Shown one piece after another: positions 5,086 to 40,632 of a stretch of 40,632 nucleotides of DNA. The stretch comes from a virus: IMG/VR virus record IMGVR_UViG_3300005095_000152, positions 1 to 40,632 of that record; one strand, written 5' to 3'. The position numbers were made by a program, and so were the translations under genes. The first letter of the stretch is position 1. Each line of letters opens with the position of its first letter. The notes beneath the pieces are model-generated. The model was not told the origin of the DNA. It did not search any database and was given only the letters and a program-made list of their open reading frames with translations.

Positions 5086-5107
5086 AGTGTCTCCTTTCTG
5101 TTGTTAT

Positions 5108-5136
5108 ATTATAATTATATCCTAATTAACCTTAAA
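5108..5136 (-). promoter_or_regulatory. Promoter of the xre-to-nrdA operon
   Basis: Read on the minus strand: TTTAAG (5136-5131), 11 nt, TATAAT (5119-5114), followed by a second TATAAT one base later. The xre start lies about 28 bp downstream. If the second TATAAT is the true -10, then TTTAAG sits 17 nt upstream, at a normal -35 distance. The same arrangement occurs at most operon heads in this genome. Confidence 0.8.
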
Positions 5137-5178
5137 GATAGGTTAAATTAGACGAAATTCAATTTTAAGCGATTGAAT

Positions 5179-5208
5179 GATTAACTCGAGTATTTCATCG
5201 AGTTAATC
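5179..5208. promoter_or_regulatory. 30-bp perfect palindrome, copy B
   Basis: GATTAACTCGA (5179-5189) and TCGAGTTAATC (5198-5208) are perfect inverse complements around an 8-nt centre. It lies about 55 nt past the dpdA stop and about 43 nt upstream of the xre promoter. Conserved in copy A with one wobble-compatible change. It is either a transcript 3' hairpin or an operator. Confidence 0.68.
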
Positions 5209-5261
5209 TTTAAAACGGTAATTTACCGTGTTTTCGCCTCTTAGAATCTGGATGTATTGAG

Positions 5262-13370: not shown

Positions 13371-13554
13371 AATCAACCTCCTTGTTAATCTTGAACGGCC
13401 AGCTCTTATCTACTGCACCGTAACTATTAATGAATGTATAATGATAAAAGTCCTCACTATCATCCTCATATACATCAGTCAGCTGACGAACCTTTCCGTC
13501 GCTGAACTCGTAGCACTTACCTATATCACTCGGTCTCAAACTTGATACCCACAT
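13327..13554 (-). CDS. Small hypothetical protein
   Basis: The 75-aa frame starts in the TAATG overlap with the primase stop and has AAGGAG eleven bases upstream of its ATG. The product is W- and D-rich with a central Y-E-D-D-S-E-D-F-Y-H-Y stretch, likely a small beta-fold protein. Co-transcribed between primase/helicase and thyX. No family recognised. Confidence 0.6.
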   Translation of the reverse strand: MWVSSLRPSDIGKCYEFSDGKVRQLTDVYEDDSEDFYHYTFINSYGAVDKSWPFKINKEVDCEGREAKSVTSSKN

Positions 13555-15689
13555 TATTCATCTCCTTGCAGGATAACTAATCCTTTGAATGAGTCTCTCG
13601 GCAGCTCTATGTATGAGATGCTTCTGTTCTTGTCATACTTCTTACCGAAGTCTCTCTTCGGCATAAATCCATATTGCTGCAGCTCTCTTGTAACCTTATT
13701 CGCCGATATCGGGAACTTCTCATTGATTGCCTCAACTATATGTGTGACAGATATGATACTCTCCGATGCCCACTGCAACGGCTCATACCCTATCGCCTCC
13801 TGGAACCTATCCCACTTCTTCTTTCTGATACTCTCAACTATTACTCGCAAGAGTGACTGAGAATCAGACACGAAGACACTCTTAGTCCTACTCTCAGGTG
13901 CTTGAGTATACTTCTCAACCGGTAGGTCCTCAACCTCGCTGTAGAGATAATAAGCGAAGCTCTCCATCTCGTCAGCAATCTTCTGTTTAAAATTAGCTAC
14001 ATCGAACCATTCTTCCTCCTTTAAGCTGCCCTTCGGGCTTGAGATAAAATAACGACGGTCGTCCTCACTCTGAATATCTATAGCTATCTCGTTGGAGCTA
14101 TAGTACTGAGTATTACTATGCTTGTATGTCTGCACCTCGCCGTACATCGGTCTTACACCTACAGAATCAGACGCTGACAGTCTCTTCGATATCGATGTGA
14201 CCTCAGCTCTGTTCATCTTATCATACTCATCGTGCAAGCTAAACAGAGAGTTAATTATCCAGCTGTTGTACTTATCACGAAACTCTATCGGTCCTACCTC
14301 TGCTACCTGGTCCTCACCAACGAGTGCCTTGAGCACGAAGTGGAAGAATAGTGTCTTACCTGAACCACCTATCGGCTCAAAGAGAACTATAACTACAGGT
14401 GAGTACTCGAACTTAGTCAGCTTCCGTCTGAGGAACCCTAACATATACTCAAAGTGTCCATCCTCTGGCCAGAGGTGCTTCATCAAGCTAAGAATAAACT
14501 CTGGCTTGCGATATACTTCTGGCTCTAACTCACCTTGTAGTATTCTGAGATACTTGTTGAGCCTTGCCTCATTAAAGTAGCTCTCGTTGTTCTCCTCGAA
14601 GAACCCTCCAGGCTTTGTTCTGTCGCTTATAGTTACTATATGCTTGACAGTTGTGTACAAGTCCTTAGCTGTCACTCTCTGCCTCATCAGCATTGACAGC
14701 GTCTTAGTATAGAGACTCACATCCTTAAACTTAGTCAGCTTATCCTTAGTCTCGTTATATATCATATAGAGGAACAACACAGGGTCGTACCAAGTAATGA
14801 AGTCATCTCCATTTGCCTTAAAGTGGTACAGTCCTTCCTCCCAGGTATCATCGTAGTTAAAGTCTACATATCTACCTGACCTATAGTTATCGTGCAGAGT
14901 TCTGAACCTACTATCAGGCCATGGATACTCCCACTGGTCGTGCACATACATCAAGTGCTCAGTGTATGCATCCTCGTCTATCGTAGGGTCTGCTGCAAGT
15001 ATTGATGCAACTGACACCAGGTAGTCGTTCCCTTCCCCATCAGGTACATCGTTAGGCTCTATATATCCTTTCCTCTTGTATGCAGACAGATGCCGCAAGT
15101 GCTTCGGAGTCAATCTCTTCCAGTATGCCTCTGACCCTTTTGTTAGTGAAGCGAGCGGTGTCCCTATTGCCGCAGGCGAAGCTATTTTCTGCTTCTGGTT
15201 CTTAGCTCGCACGTTGGATATTGCCATCACGAACACTCTTAGTGCCTCAGGCATCGGAGCTATATCTGAGTCATCTATGACAGTATATCCCTCAGCAGCC
15301 TCCGTCGGCAGGTATATGAGCGCCTCGTCAGTCTGTATATCTAAACTAATATCCTCCGTATGCATCTTCACGCGTTGCACCTTAGCATCGTAGCTATAGT
15401 AATAATGAGCTCCTCGGTGCGTCTTCACCTTGAATGTCTTATGCTCCCCAGCTATGCTATCGATTATCTCCTTGGTCTTCTCATCGTCCATGTCTATAAC
15501 TATTACACCACTCTTCTTACCTGTGATAAGTGCTCCTGCTGGACTTGCTTGCGTGTTACGCTCCTCTGTATACTTCTTCCAGTTGGGCATACCTATTACT
15601 TGCTTCTCGCCCTTCTCATTACGCTTGATAGCCTGCAGTGGTACTGTCCACCAGCCTCTGTCGATGAATGGCTTTATACTTTTATCCAT
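13554..15689 (-). CDS. Bifunctional primase-polymerase / SF3 (D5-type) replicative helicase
   Basis: The 711-aa protein joins an N-terminal archaeo-eukaryotic-type prim-pol domain (V-I-V-I-D-M-D-D near residue 70, then H-R-G-A-H-Y-Y-Y) to a C-terminal D5-like superfamily 3 helicase with Walker A P-I-G-G-S-G-K-T (about residue 440), a downstream acidic H-D-E-Y-D motif, and a wHTH-like tail. Such proteins start and drive replication in plasmids and some phages, often from iteron-bearing origins, which fits the repeats at 18.37 kb. It takes the place of the TOPRIM primase-helicase of T7. Coupled to the gene before it (16-nt overlap). Confidence 0.9.
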   Translation of the reverse strand: MDKSIKPFIDRGWWTVPLQAIKRNEKGEKQVIGMPNWKKYTEERNTQASPAGALITGKKSGVIVIDMDDEKTKEIIDSIAGEHKTFKVKTHRGAHYYYSYDAKVQRVKMHTEDISLDIQTDEALIYLPTEAAEGYTVIDDSDIAPMPEALRVFVMAISNVRAKNQKQKIASPAAIGTPLASLTKGSEAYWKRLTPKHLRHLSAYKRKGYIEPNDVPDGEGNDYLVSVASILAADPTIDEDAYTEHLMYVHDQWEYPWPDSRFRTLHDNYRSGRYVDFNYDDTWEEGLYHFKANGDDFITWYDPVLFLYMIYNETKDKLTKFKDVSLYTKTLSMLMRQRVTAKDLYTTVKHIVTISDRTKPGGFFEENNESYFNEARLNKYLRILQGELEPEVYRKPEFILSLMKHLWPEDGHFEYMLGFLRRKLTKFEYSPVVIVLFEPIGGSGKTLFFHFVLKALVGEDQVAEVGPIEFRDKYNSWIINSLFSLHDEYDKMNRAEVTSISKRLSASDSVGVRPMYGEVQTYKHSNTQYYSSNEIAIDIQSEDDRRYFISSPKGSLKEEEWFDVANFKQKIADEMESFAYYLYSEVEDLPVEKYTQAPESRTKSVFVSDSQSLLRVIVESIRKKKWDRFQEAIGYEPLQWASESIISVTHIVEAINEKFPISANKVTRELQQYGFMPKRDFGKKYDKNRSISYIELPRDSFKGLVILQGDE

Positions 15690-16066
15690 CTCATTGCCTT
15701 CTTGCTGTATAGTCTATAGTTAGTATCCCAGAAGGTTTGCAGCCCTTGATTATCTAATACTTGTGTTAGTCGCTTACTGCTTAGTCCTGGGTAGTTGGCT
15801 CGCAAGCTATCGAGGAGTTCGCTGTAGCTAATATAGTAGCTATCTTTATAGCACTTGTACGGTGCGTATATGTTAGCGTCTTCGACAGCTTCCTCGCTTT
15901 GTAGCTCATCAAGCATAGCTAATACATCATTAGCTAATGTATCAATAGGCTCCGTTACTACCTGTAACTTCTTAGCTTTCCGCTGCAGCTTTTGGACTGC
16001 TGTGCCGTCAAGTACGAATACTTCATCGACCAGTTTCACTGTGTATAGTTCGTCTTCGTGTACCAT
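15674..16066 (-). CDS. Hypothetical protein, first gene of the primase operon
   Basis: The 130-aa protein has GGAGG four bases before its ATG. The N-terminal half is acidic and helical. The C-terminal half (about 75-130) has S-Y-S-E-L-L-D-S-L-R...L-S-S-K-R-L-T-Q-V-L followed by a Y-R-L-Y-S strand, which looks like a winged-helix DNA-binding fold similar to the tail of D5 helicases. It overlaps the primase/helicase start. It may be an accessory initiator or a split-off primase C-terminal domain. No named family recognised. Confidence 0.72.
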   Translation of the reverse strand: MVHEDELYTVKLVDEVFVLDGTAVQKLQRKAKKLQVVTEPIDTLANDVLAMLDELQSEEAVEDANIYAPYKCYKDSYYISYSELLDSLRANYPGLSSKRLTQVLDNQGLQTFWDTNYRLYSKKAMRWIKV

Positions 16067-16115: not shown

Positions 16116-16276
16116 TCTTGCTTAATGTTCTATTTCCTCCTTATGTAACCACATATCGGACGAAATATAAAGCTTTGCTGATTTTCGATAAAGTCGCTGT
16201 TACAACAAGGTGCTTCCTTTACCTTATAATTATGCTGTAATTATAATATAAAATCCTAAGATTTTAGGTAGGCTTC

Positions 16277-16323
16277 AGACCGAGTTTTACAAGAAATAAA
16301 ATGCAACACTTTTAACACTTTTT
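16277..16323 (+). repeat. Inverted-repeat family element 1
   Basis: Plus-oriented copy: AGACCGA at its left, an A/T stretch, then TGCAAC-A-C and TTTTAACACTTTTT at its right. It pairs with element 2 through a 22-bp arm with one mismatch plus the outer AGACCGA block. The whole unit recurs at 18.54 kb. Confidence 0.85.
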
Positions 16324-16370
16324 TGCCTTATCTATCTCTTTTTTTTCTTATTTTTTTCTTCACATTATAT

Positions 16371-16418
16371 AAAAAGTGTTAAAAGCGTTGCAAATTTATT
16401 TTAGTTATACGTCGGTCT
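16371..16418 (-). repeat. Inverted-repeat family element 2
   Basis: Minus-oriented copy beginning AGACCGA (16418-16412 on the minus strand) and ending in TTTTAACACTTTTT. It begins 11 nt after the stop of the 16430 gene. With element 1 it could form a long cruciform or RNA stem with a 47-nt spacer. Confidence 0.85.
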
Positions 16419-16429
16419 AAAGCTATTAG

Positions 16430-17745: not shown

Positions 17746-17958
17746 TTAACCCTCTAAGAATATAACCTTCTCTATCTCATATGTCGCATAGTCTAAGATT
17801 AGTTCTTCGAACTCTTCGAAGTCTTCTGCTGACATTATAATATGAGTCTGGTCTCTAATGATATATACTCCAGTAGGTAGTATAGTATTCATCGCCTCTA
17901 TATCGCTAATATATAAGAGATATAATCTTTCATCTCTTTCTTTCGTCTTAGTCTTCAT
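17746..17958 (-). CDS. Small acidic hypothetical protein
   Basis: 70 aa with a basic N-terminus (M-K-T-K-T-K-E-R-D-E-R), a middle strand region and an acidic helix (S-A-E-D-F-E-E-F-E-E-L-I). AGAAAGGAGAACAAA precedes the ATG, an excellent SD, and the phage-type promoter lies about 30 bp upstream. No family recognised. It and the next gene look like separately transcribed early genes. Confidence 0.72.
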   Translation of the reverse strand: MKTKTKERDERLYLLYISDIEAMNTILPTGVYIIRDQTHIIMSAEDFEEFEELILDYATYEIEKVIFLEG

Positions 17959-17987
17959 TTTGTTCTCCTTTCTTTTCTTATACGACC

Positions 17988-18010
17988 ATTATAATATAAC
18001 AATGCTTAAA
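17988..18010 (-). promoter_or_regulatory. Promoter of the 17746 gene
   Basis: Minus strand: TTTAAG (18010-18005), 11 nt, TATAAT (17993-17988). Confidence 0.72.
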
Positions 18011-18156
18011 TTCTTCTTAAATTAGAACAAAATTTTCATTTTCTTTCAAACCCTTATATTAATGAAAATAAATAGCCAAACTTTCCTTACAAACAGGTTA
18101 ATCTAATGTTAAAGTTTTCTTAATATCGAACTACTATGAATAAGTAAACTATTCGA

Positions 18157-18195
18157 ACTTACATTAGGAAAGTCAATCTAATTGACTTACATTAG
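18157..18195. repeat. Direct repeats with 28-bp period around a perfect palindrome
   Basis: ACTTACATTAG occurs at 18157-18167 and 18185-18195. Between them lies AAGTCAAT-CTA-ATTGACTT (18170-18188), a perfect 8-bp inverted repeat whose right arm runs into the second direct repeat. Confidence 0.8.
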
Positions 18196-18227
18196 AACGG
18201 TAAAATTTGGTTATCGAAGCCCGGTAG

Positions 18228-18271
18228 GTTAAGTTTATTGACTGTTGGAGTGTAAGTTAAGTTTATTTACT
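18228..18271. repeat. Second 28-bp-period direct repeat
   Basis: GTTAAGTTTATT-n-ACT occurs at 18228-18243 and 18256-18271, with the same 28-bp period as the pair just upstream. Confidence 0.75.
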
Positions 18272-18372
18272 TTACTGTGTTGGTGTTGGGGTTGGTTGTG
18301 TTGTTTGATGGTGGAGGGAGTCCGCGGCGCCCTTGATGGCCCATATACCTATATATAACAAACCCGAAAATT

Positions 18373-18445
18373 TGACGTGTCTACACAGCACCTAAATTTG
18401 ACGTAGCTACGCAGCACCTAAAGCTGACGTGTTTACACAAGAGCA
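18373..18445. repeat. Three 26-bp iterons with co-varying internal dyads
   Basis: Units start at 18373, 18399 and 18425, each beginning TGACGT. The core dyads are GTGT-CT-ACAC, GTAGCTAC (extended to CGTAGCTACG) and GTGT-TT-ACAC. When one half changes from GTGT to GTAG, the other changes from ACAC to CTAC, so symmetry is kept. Units 1 and 2 share CAGCACCTAAA after the dyad. These look like binding sites for a dimeric protein or small hairpins. Confidence 0.88.
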
Positions 18446-18542
18446 GACTTTAAACTAACTAAGAGAACCACAGGCAGGGCCCTTTCCACGCACCCTATAT
18501 CTAAAGCGTAAACTAAATAAAAAAATTTTTCGTATTCCGAGT

Positions 18543-18589
18543 AGACCGACATTTAGCTAAATTAAATTTGCAACGCTTTTAACACTTTT
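18543..18589 (+). repeat. Inverted-repeat family element 3
   Basis: Plus-oriented copy: AGACCGAC, GCTAAA, TAAATTTGCAACG, then TTTTAACACTTTT. It is closer to element 2 than to element 1. It pairs with element 4 across about 43 nt. Confidence 0.85.
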
Positions 18590-18630
18590 AAGGTAATCTA
18601 TAGGAAAACTAAGAAAATTATAGAAGGCCC

Positions 18631-18668
18631 AAAAAAGTGTTAAATAACTTAATTTTGTTAAAGGTCTA
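18631..18668 (-). repeat. Inverted-repeat family element 4 (shorter)
   Basis: Minus-oriented copy: TAGACC, AAAATTAA, then TTTAACACTTTTTT. The middle part is shortened, and its TAGACC block overlaps the last codons of terL. Same arrangement as element 2 behind the 16430 gene. Confidence 0.65.
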
Positions 18669-20184
18669 ACCCGTTCTTAGGCTTCGGTAGCGAGGAAGAC
18701 TTGATAAGAGGGCTATCAGAGGTAGTGTCAACAACATCAGTAAGTGAAGCATACCTAATAGCATCAGCCATATGAGAATACTGATTATGAAGAGGCTTAT
18801 CTTTCCAAACTCCACGCTTCTCATCCCATTCCTTAGTATAGTTATCCAGTGCATCTATTACCTCTGTACATCCTGCATCTATCCAAGTATTAGTTAGCAT
18901 TTGTCGAACATGTTCAATACCATCCAGTATAGGTACGTTACGAACAATTCTAATGTTGACTCCTAGAGACCTAAATATAGCTCGCCTACTTTTACCTGAG
19001 CCTAACTCCCTCACTTTAAGATCATGAGGGCCATAAACGTGACTATAATCGTAGGTTTTGCTACGCATAATATTTACATAGTGAGCTATAGGTTCACCGT
19101 TATTCACATATTCATCTACTATACGTACTTCACCTCTAAATACTTGGTAAAATACCATGGTAAAGTCATCGTTCATACCTAAATCCATAGCTACGTGAAC
19201 TTTGAGGTTAGGGTCATAGAGATTCTCTACAATGCGTCCAAGCTTGCGTATGCGACGCATCTGGTTAGCATAATAAGTACCATCTCGAGCAGCCTGGAAT
19301 GCCTCTTCGGGTGTGGAAGGGTACTCTTGAGTAATATCGTCACCAAGCTCTCTATACTTAGCTACATAGAAGTACTTCTGTTCTTTATCGAGCGTAATAC
19401 TGAGCTCATCTTCTACTTTGGTAAAGTATTCAGCAAGTTTGTTAGGAATAAGCTGCCTCTCTTCGAGCCTACAATCAGGGTCCTCAGTCCAAGAGATGAA
19501 GATAGGTGCAAAGTCAAGTTCGGAAAATGGACCTTGATGATTCTCGGCTACTTTCCACATTTCATAGAATAGGCCTGACTTACCTTCAGCAGTACTCTCA
19601 ATAGTTACTCTACGCTTACCACCGATGGCTTGAAGAGTACCAGTTTTGAGCTCTTTAGCTTTGTCAGGAAACTTAGCTGCGATTTTACCGAGCTCTGAGA
19701 TATGCAAGTTCTGCAGAGTACCGGAACGGAACGACGTACGAATCATTAGCTTCGAGTTGTTACTAAAGGCATACTCTTTGGAGTTATCTGTAATTAGCTT
19801 AATGCTGAGGAATTCTTTAATCTTAGGGTCCAAGTTATCCCACGCTACTCTACACTTCTCTAATAGCTCAGCTGCTTCATCAAGACCCTGAGCCATGACA
19901 CCGTTGGTTAAGTTCTCATTAAATATAGCTTCGTCGAGGTTATATAATAGGTGATATGTAGAGATACCGACCTGACGAGACTTTAGAATAATTTTACGGT
20001 TGTGCTTTACCTCCGCTACCTTTTTCTGTAGTGGGTTCATTCTAAATAGTACCAGGTCACCTTGTTTATTGATAACCTTGTACAGGTTATTCATTCTCCA
20101 GAGTTTGGAACCAAGGAGCTGAATGAATTCTTCATCTGTAGCAGGTACAGCATCAATGATTGACCAGTCTATGTTAGATTTCAT
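18658..20184 (-). CDS. terL: Terminase large subunit
   Basis: Packaging motor ATPase and nuclease of 508 aa. The N-terminal ATPase has the adenine-binding N-P-L-Q-K region, a Walker A of terminase type I-L-K-S69-R-Q-V-G-I-S-T and a Walker B region near L-H-I-S-E-L. The C-terminal RNase H-like nuclease starts at V-A-M-D-L-G-M-N-D (about residue 332). It overlaps terS by 11 nt. It is on the opposite strand from all other virion genes and is transcribed away from them, which is unusual for podoviruses. Confidence 0.93.
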   Translation of the reverse strand: MKSNIDWSIIDAVPATDEEFIQLLGSKLWRMNNLYKVINKQGDLVLFRMNPLQKKVAEVKHNRKIILKSRQVGISTYHLLYNLDEAIFNENLTNGVMAQGLDEAAELLEKCRVAWDNLDPKIKEFLSIKLITDNSKEYAFSNNSKLMIRTSFRSGTLQNLHISELGKIAAKFPDKAKELKTGTLQAIGGKRRVTIESTAEGKSGLFYEMWKVAENHQGPFSELDFAPIFISWTEDPDCRLEERQLIPNKLAEYFTKVEDELSITLDKEQKYFYVAKYRELGDDITQEYPSTPEEAFQAARDGTYYANQMRRIRKLGRIVENLYDPNLKVHVAMDLGMNDDFTMVFYQVFRGEVRIVDEYVNNGEPIAHYVNIMRSKTYDYSHVYGPHDLKVRELGSGKSRRAIFRSLGVNIRIVRNVPILDGIEHVRQMLTNTWIDAGCTEVIDALDNYTKEWDEKRGVWKDKPLHNQYSHMADAIRYASLTDVVDTTSDSPLIKSSSLPKPKNGLDL

Positions 20185-20674
20185 TGCGCTTCACTCCTTC
20201 AAAGAACGAGAGACTTGTATTGGATATAGCTGTACTATTATTAACTACAACGCTTGGGTTTTTAGAGTTAAAGTACGCATTGCGGATAGCTATGTTGATG
20301 TCGAGAATTGATTTTAGCTCACCTACGGAGCTGTCGACCGAGAGCTTAGTATTAGCTAAATCAAGAATAGCTTGCGCTTGAAGTTGAAGCGTTACATCTA
20401 ACTTCTGTAGACCTTCAACACCTTCAACTGCTTTCTGTATATCTAAATCAAATTGAGGAGCTTTCTCCTTAACCTCTTCAACAGGCAAGGAAGCTAAAAT
20501 TTCTACCTTTTCATCATCCGATATCTCATCCCAACTCTCCCTATAGATACGAGCTTTGAGAGTAGATTCACGAACATTAAATTTAGCTGCGAGCATTCTA
20601 ATATCGGTATTACCGGTTATATATTCGGCTTTTATAGCTGCAGCAAGTTTTGAGTCGATTCTTCTGTATGACAT
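20174..20674 (-). CDS. terS: Terminase small subunit
   Basis: This 166-aa protein has an N-terminal helix-turn-helix (A-A-A-I-K-A-E-Y...I-R-M-L-A-A-K-F-N-V-R-E-S-T-L-K-A-R-I) like many DNA-recognising small terminase subunits, then a helical oligomerisation region with L-D-V-T-L-Q-L-Q-A-Q-A, then a C-terminal tail. AAGGAG lies upstream of the ATG. It is directly followed by terL. The call rests on the HTH and on the position. Confidence 0.82.
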   Translation of the reverse strand: MSYRRIDSKLAAAIKAEYITGNTDIRMLAAKFNVRESTLKARIYRESWDEISDDEKVEILASLPVEEVKEKAPQFDLDIQKAVEGVEGLQKLDVTLQLQAQAILDLANTKLSVDSSVGELKSILDINIAIRNAYFNSKNPSVVVNNSTAISNTSLSFFEGVKRNEI

Positions 20675-40510: not shown

Positions 40511-40538
40511 AAGCTTCTCCTTCTGTTGTTATATTATA

Positions 40539-40561
40539 ATTATAGCCTAATTAAACTTAAA
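40539..40561 (-). promoter_or_regulatory. Promoter of the dUTPase-folE-nrdB operon
   Basis: Minus strand: TTTAAG (40561-40556), 11 nt, TATAAT (40544-40539), followed directly by a second TATAAT (40538-40533). Part of repeat copy A, and nearly identical to the xre promoter. Confidence 0.8.
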
Positions 40562-40632
40562 GAAAGGTTAAATTAGACGAAATCCAATTTTAAGCCGTTT
40601 AATGATTAACTCGAGTATTTCATCAAGTTAAT

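Follow-up and report, generated by a model that had tools for sequence, protein, structure and literature searches.

Three 26-bp repeats and a putative stem-loop origin in the non-coding region of a podovirus related to phage KF-1

The plasmid pRN1 of Sulfolobus encodes an AEP prim-pol with an SF3-type helicase, and its origin is a stem-loop of ~100 nt that is conserved in structure and not in sequence (PMC4234260). A putative stem-loop origin has also been proposed for phage BIP-1, and a 47-bp repeat of that phage was discounted as its origin (PMC4234260). The 8-mer TTTGGTTA is the recognition sequence of the NrS-1 polymerase (PMC8718748). The alpha protein of phage P4 has a primase of the Toprim type (PMC4234260).

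The window analysed here is the whole of the IMG/VR virus record IMGVR_UViG_3300005095_000152, 40,632 bases in length and ~60% AT. An identical repeat of 91 bp stands at both of its ends (1-91 and 40542-40632); it resembles the 127-bp overlaps of phage PH1 and of the genomes G001, G009, and G014, and may itself have arisen as an assembly overlap. An intergenic stretch of 166 bp also occurs in two copies with 90% identity, one near the second skew boundary of the genome (copy at 5096-5261, boundary at 4.4-7.4 kb) and the other spanning the record ends (40521-40541, continued at 1-145). The phage is a podovirus and kin to Edwardsiella phage KF-1 (Kafunavirus), Vibrio phage VPMS1, Pseudoalteromonas phage PH1, and Dickeya phage Amaethon. 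Searches of IMG/VR with its prim-pol or its DNA polymerase found no close relatives. The early genes and the terminase genes, TerL (18658-20184) and TerS (20174-20674), point leftward (- strand), opposite to the rightward structural genes. The leftward early genes are headed by a non-coding region with two gaps (16.07-18.66 kb). Gap 1 (17959-18657) is free of ORFs of at least 60 aa and separates these genes, the first of them at 17746-17958, from the TerL stop.

Within gap 1, the earlier note had described three 26-bp units at 18373-18445. The units are real, exactly 26 bp apart, and each contains TGACGT (18373, 18399, and 18425), but their register starts at 18368: the three direct repeats, AAATTTGACGTGTCTACACAGCACCT and two diverged copies, occupy 18368-18393, 18394-18419, and 18420-18445 (18368-18445, + strand). 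Units 2 and 3 are 88% and 73% identical to unit 1. The TRF score of the array, 102, is the top score of the window, and 39 of 52 positions match at lag 26, against maxima of 29-32 for the best of any lag in 20 Markov genomes. The array is the strongest short-lag repeat in the window, beyond chance. No other exact copy of its composite motif occurs within the window, IMG/VR contains neither the exact array nor a longer pattern of it, and no known RNA family in Rfam matches it. The internal dyads of the units had been said to co-vary and to suggest a dimeric initiator or hairpins. The arms GTGT..ACAC are common to units 1 and 3, with the axis at base 14.5, and unit 2 carries CGTAGCTACG, a 10-bp palindrome longer than the earlier note stated, with the axis at 13.5. 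Because the axis shifts by one base, the dyads pair different positions and none of the pairs is kept by compensation; when unit 2 is aligned on the axis of the other two units, only one of its four pairs is still Watson-Crick. Three substitutions converted one short palindrome to the other. Of all 26-mers in the window, 25% have a dyad with arms of at least 4. When either strand of the array is folded alone, the result does not surpass that of shuffles (z -0.43 and -0.25). Given the shifted axis, the single pair kept, the commonness of such arms, and the shuffle-level folding, co-variation is unsupported, and hairpin formation by the array was rejected.

The array had also been put forward as the best origin candidate. 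A better candidate lies 2 kb away in gap 2, the second ORF-free gap, which lies outside the coordinates covered by the earlier note and upstream of the genes at 15674 and 13554. The strongest inverted repeat of the genome is located there (16274-16425), with a stem of ~48 bp, a 47-nt loop that is pyrimidine-rich on the + strand, and a z of -7.9. Its arms are formed by a 48-bp element X. The top stem-loop of the genome falls in the gap 2 region in 10 of 13 genomes, or in 9 of 12 when G013, whose stem-loop is a primer-like artefact, is set aside; the nominal p of 3e-10 is overstated, because the region was chosen after the pattern had been seen in several of the same genomes. The structure in G013 (~14831-14878 after rotation of the genome; it also forms the end of locus L053) is a palindrome of GTTTCCCAGTCACGATC and has the appearance of an amplification primer that stayed in the assembly. 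The stems in the relatives are 19-42 bp long and have unrelated sequences. The preference for the stem-loop over the array comes from its conserved position and from its fit to the pRN1 precedent.

The resemblance to pRN1 and BIP-1 includes the replication protein. As the earlier note had recognized, a D5-type (SF3-like) helicase with prim-pol is encoded (13554-15689, - strand): the 711-aa protein, a candidate initiator, contains the Prim-Pol domain PF09250 and DUF5906, and is homologous to the helicase part of the NrS-1 polymerase (PDB 6k9c, profile E 4e-19). Thus an AEP prim-pol fused to an SF3-type helicase is accompanied, as in the described systems, by a large stem-loop conserved in place and structure alone. 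The prim-pol is only 26-28% identical even to those of its own phage family. Its AlphaFold model (pLDDT 33) is unusable for judging a C-terminal winged-helix DNA-binding domain. A 130-aa protein directly before it (15674-16066, - strand), without a family match, is winged-helix-like by eye only. The stem-loop lies ~0.2 kb upstream of the gene for this protein, i.e., 5' of the prim-pol genes, whereas that of pRN1 lies just 3' of the replication gene. A further difference from pRN1 and BIP-1 is the second conserved gap with arrays at a distance of 2 kb, and the role of the stem-loop is putative here.

Gap 1 contains several other elements, all given on the + strand. Two more pairs of direct repeats, each with a spacing of 28 bp (18157/18185 and 18224/18252), occupy 18157-18271; the pair at 18224/18252 exceeds 300 Markov simulations at lag 28 and had been missed by the earlier note. 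A third copy of element X lies right of the array (18542-18589; 92% over 48 bp, E 4e-14) and links gap 1 to the stem-loop in gap 2; the two gaps have this element in common in this genome only. Also right of the array, a perfect 12-bp inverted repeat with a 43-nt loop is found at 18578-18644 (DNA fold z -3.35). The NrS-1 8-mer TTTGGTTA occurs once in the window, in gap 1 (18206-18213). The homologous prim-pol/helicase makes the NrS-1 system comparable, but a single 8-mer is not significant (chance p ~0.11) and its recognition by the prim-pol is only putative; as proof of an NrS-1-like start site it was rejected, and it serves as a lead only. The NrS-1 polymerase site recurs in one relative (L036, ~910-1190, G009), where ~310 bp of non-coding gap contain it five times in the form TTTGGTTA/TAACCAAA, with some copies within the stem-loop of that gap. 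To the left of gap 1, a search for motifs gave only an apparent shared coding stretch.

The GC skew at 4-fold sites changes sign in the window at 18.69 kb, with a 3-unit support interval of 17.5-19.2 kb. An inflection near 18.4 kb, proposed earlier as a check on the origin, is therefore present at these sites, in this genome only. The fit was never reached by gene permutations (0/2000). The switch is independent of gene strand, because TerL and TerS lie on the leftward strand; their 4-fold skew differs from that of the other leftward genes (p 4e-7). No consistent switch at gap 1 was seen in 12 other genomes, and the skew is thus evidence from one genome. Across the relatives, the 4-fold skew of TerL has a sign that follows the genome strand in both terminase orientations.

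The reading that best accommodates these data is plausible, although its probability is judged to be somewhat short of even: 16.07-18.66 kb may be a replication origin region with the stem-loop as its core and the array, a lineage-specific tandem repeat, as an auxiliary. From the pRN1 precedent, we infer that the NrS-1-type prim-pol/helicase would melt and prime the DNA at 16274-16425. Gap 1 (26-bp repeats, GC-rich block, and element X copy) would be an auxiliary part that binds protein or aids opening and tolerates replacement; any binding at these sites, and any role in initiation, is likewise something we infer. An array beyond chance, the 4-fold skew flip, the element X link, the NrS-1 homologue, and the position of the gap 2 stem-loop all speak for this reading. 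Against it, the skew interval excludes the stem-loop at 16.3 kb, the 12 genomes lack a consistent switch, the two skew boundaries do not face each other across the genome (the second is at 5.9 kb), and element X is shared in one genome. The host replication sites searched for in gap 1 (DnaA box, IHF site, and GATC) are absent. The location of gap 1 beside the terminase in both orientations would also suit packaging.

Packaging is a serious rival for gap 1, considered possible though rather doubtful. Phage cos and pac sites have repeats bound by TerS, as in the lambda cosB type. Gap 1 could be a packaging-initiation site of the pac or cos type, in which TerS/TerL recognize two conserved elements, D and E, and the repeats form a variable arm. 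Element D, the GC-rich GGGGgCTAGGGcCAGTCCgGcc, is found in gap 1 in 49 non-redundant relatives, with log-likelihoods of 257 (width 16) and 389 (width 24) versus ~60-67 in controls (width 16). Where D is clear, each genome has one best match, and the copy in gap 1 exceeds any other in the whole genome by a wide margin; no clear D was found in phages with distant TerL. In 35 of 44 relatives, the core of E, AATAAATTTAT, follows D on its right, nearly always 49-55 bp away, or ~five helical turns (e.g., L031 23450-23560). Compensatory stems around E show a small excess only (5.6 vs 5.1 pairs). As at cos and pac sites, a bipartite site that is conserved in the family stands next to the terminase genes with repeats adjoining it, and gap 1 borders these genes whether they point left or right. 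In a smaller group of relatives, TerS/TerL are inverted and the gap precedes TerS (L001, L006, L036, L037, L111, and L112); among them is L036, whose MCP is the closest to that of the window (79%).

Several observations are at odds with packaging. Contigs that end in gap 1 end within the arrays and not at D, and several genomes close on themselves elsewhere, by 127-bp overlaps; no fixed genome ends at D are seen among contig ends and circular closures, in contrast to cos and pac sites. The arrays are not conserved with TerL (rho 0.06), and skew and element X point to replication. The D copy of the window itself (CCACAGGCAGGGCCCTTTCCACGC, 18468-18491) is weak, with 10.2 bits, and not significant alone. 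The nearest thing to the E core of the family is AAATTAAATTTGC, contained in the element X copy at 18542-18589. With D weak and E changed, the window represents a diverged family member. Comparison with L001 and L006 revealed a G/T-rich and then GC-rich block left of the array (18278-18345, + strand), which may be an alternative place of D. A candidate for separating origin from packaging, G002 as a phage without prim-pol, was rejected: this genome encodes a protein of 806 aa that contains a P-loop-like motif, and it does not clearly lack a prim-pol.

The arrays could also be a by-product devoid of function, made and replaced as a busy control site undergoes slippage or recombination; this is regarded as unlikely. 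The array period ranges from 8 to >100 bp between relatives, and the sequence differs too. L055 has ~four 32-bp copies left of D and L059 has no array there, even though the two are 77% identical in prim-pol, 78% in TerL, and 86% in MCP; nothing is common between them in this respect. PH1 and L055 have an array in common at 47% prim-pol identity. The occurrence of the arrays is less easily explained in this way. As the earlier note had asked of related genomes, repeats recur at the same place: 25 of 45 relatives have them left of D, with sequences swapped or lost among close ones; the corresponding counts are 25/225 for shuffles and 7/520 for windows elsewhere. In 17 of the 25 cases the array ends no more than 30 bp from D, and in the window the units have diverged to 73% with the spacing still exact. 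A GTG strand bias left of D was discarded, since the count over all loci (182 vs 122) is inflated by repeats and only 22/45 loci show the bias.

A classical iteron origin, in which a dimeric phage initiator would bind the three repeats and open the neighbouring AT-rich DNA, is judged improbable. The likeness to P4 ori1 and plasmid oriV is real: at least three regularly spaced direct repeats at ~2.5 helical turns lie beside an AT-rich flank (72-80% AT at 17960-18209, in a genome of ~60% AT). The candidate initiator gene and the skew switch, seen in this genome and not consistently in the 12 others, also speak for this reading. However, the dyads do not co-vary, DnaA boxes are lacking, the array and the initiator gene are not adjacent, and the gap 2 stem-loop is a stronger candidate. 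Furthermore, the repeats do not co-evolve with their supposed initiator: among 25 phages with gap and prim-pol, array similarity is uncorrelated with protein identity (rho 0.07 for prim-pol, 0.06 for TerL, 0.05 for MCP). Together with the contrast between L055 and L059, this disfavours essential specific binding sites for either prim-pol or TerL, and it is the main evidence against the earlier suggestion that the repeats are initiator sites. Operators of a transcription factor controlling the leftward early promoter are hardly to be expected, for although the array lies upstream of the first leftward early gene, ~350-450 bp separate it from the likely promoter (18020-17991; a 9/12 match, no more frequent than in shuffles), and an RNA family match is lacking.

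Under the origin-region reading, the 26-bp repeats are probably accessory and replaceable, and at most accessory. For the family as a whole, a broader picture can be put forward tentatively, with rather low confidence: in a large, mostly uncultured podophage family, an NrS-1-type prim-pol/helicase would start at a stem-loop conserved in structure only (gap 2), paired with a D-~52 bp-E site beside the terminase, and the flanking arrays would be replaced freely, the 26-bp repeats being the version of this genome.

Taken alone, the 26-bp repeats would be one more unproven iteron origin; what surrounds them is more important. Two conserved non-coding sites are present in a family that has cultured members (KF-1, VPMS1, PH1, and Amaethon), one a pair of GC-rich and AT-core elements at a nearly fixed distance with fast-changing arrays, the other a stem-loop conserved in place only. 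The proposal of a stem-loop origin for prim-pol replicons thereby becomes directly testable in laboratory phages, and the family could be used to study how a control site withstands the constant replacement of its repeats.
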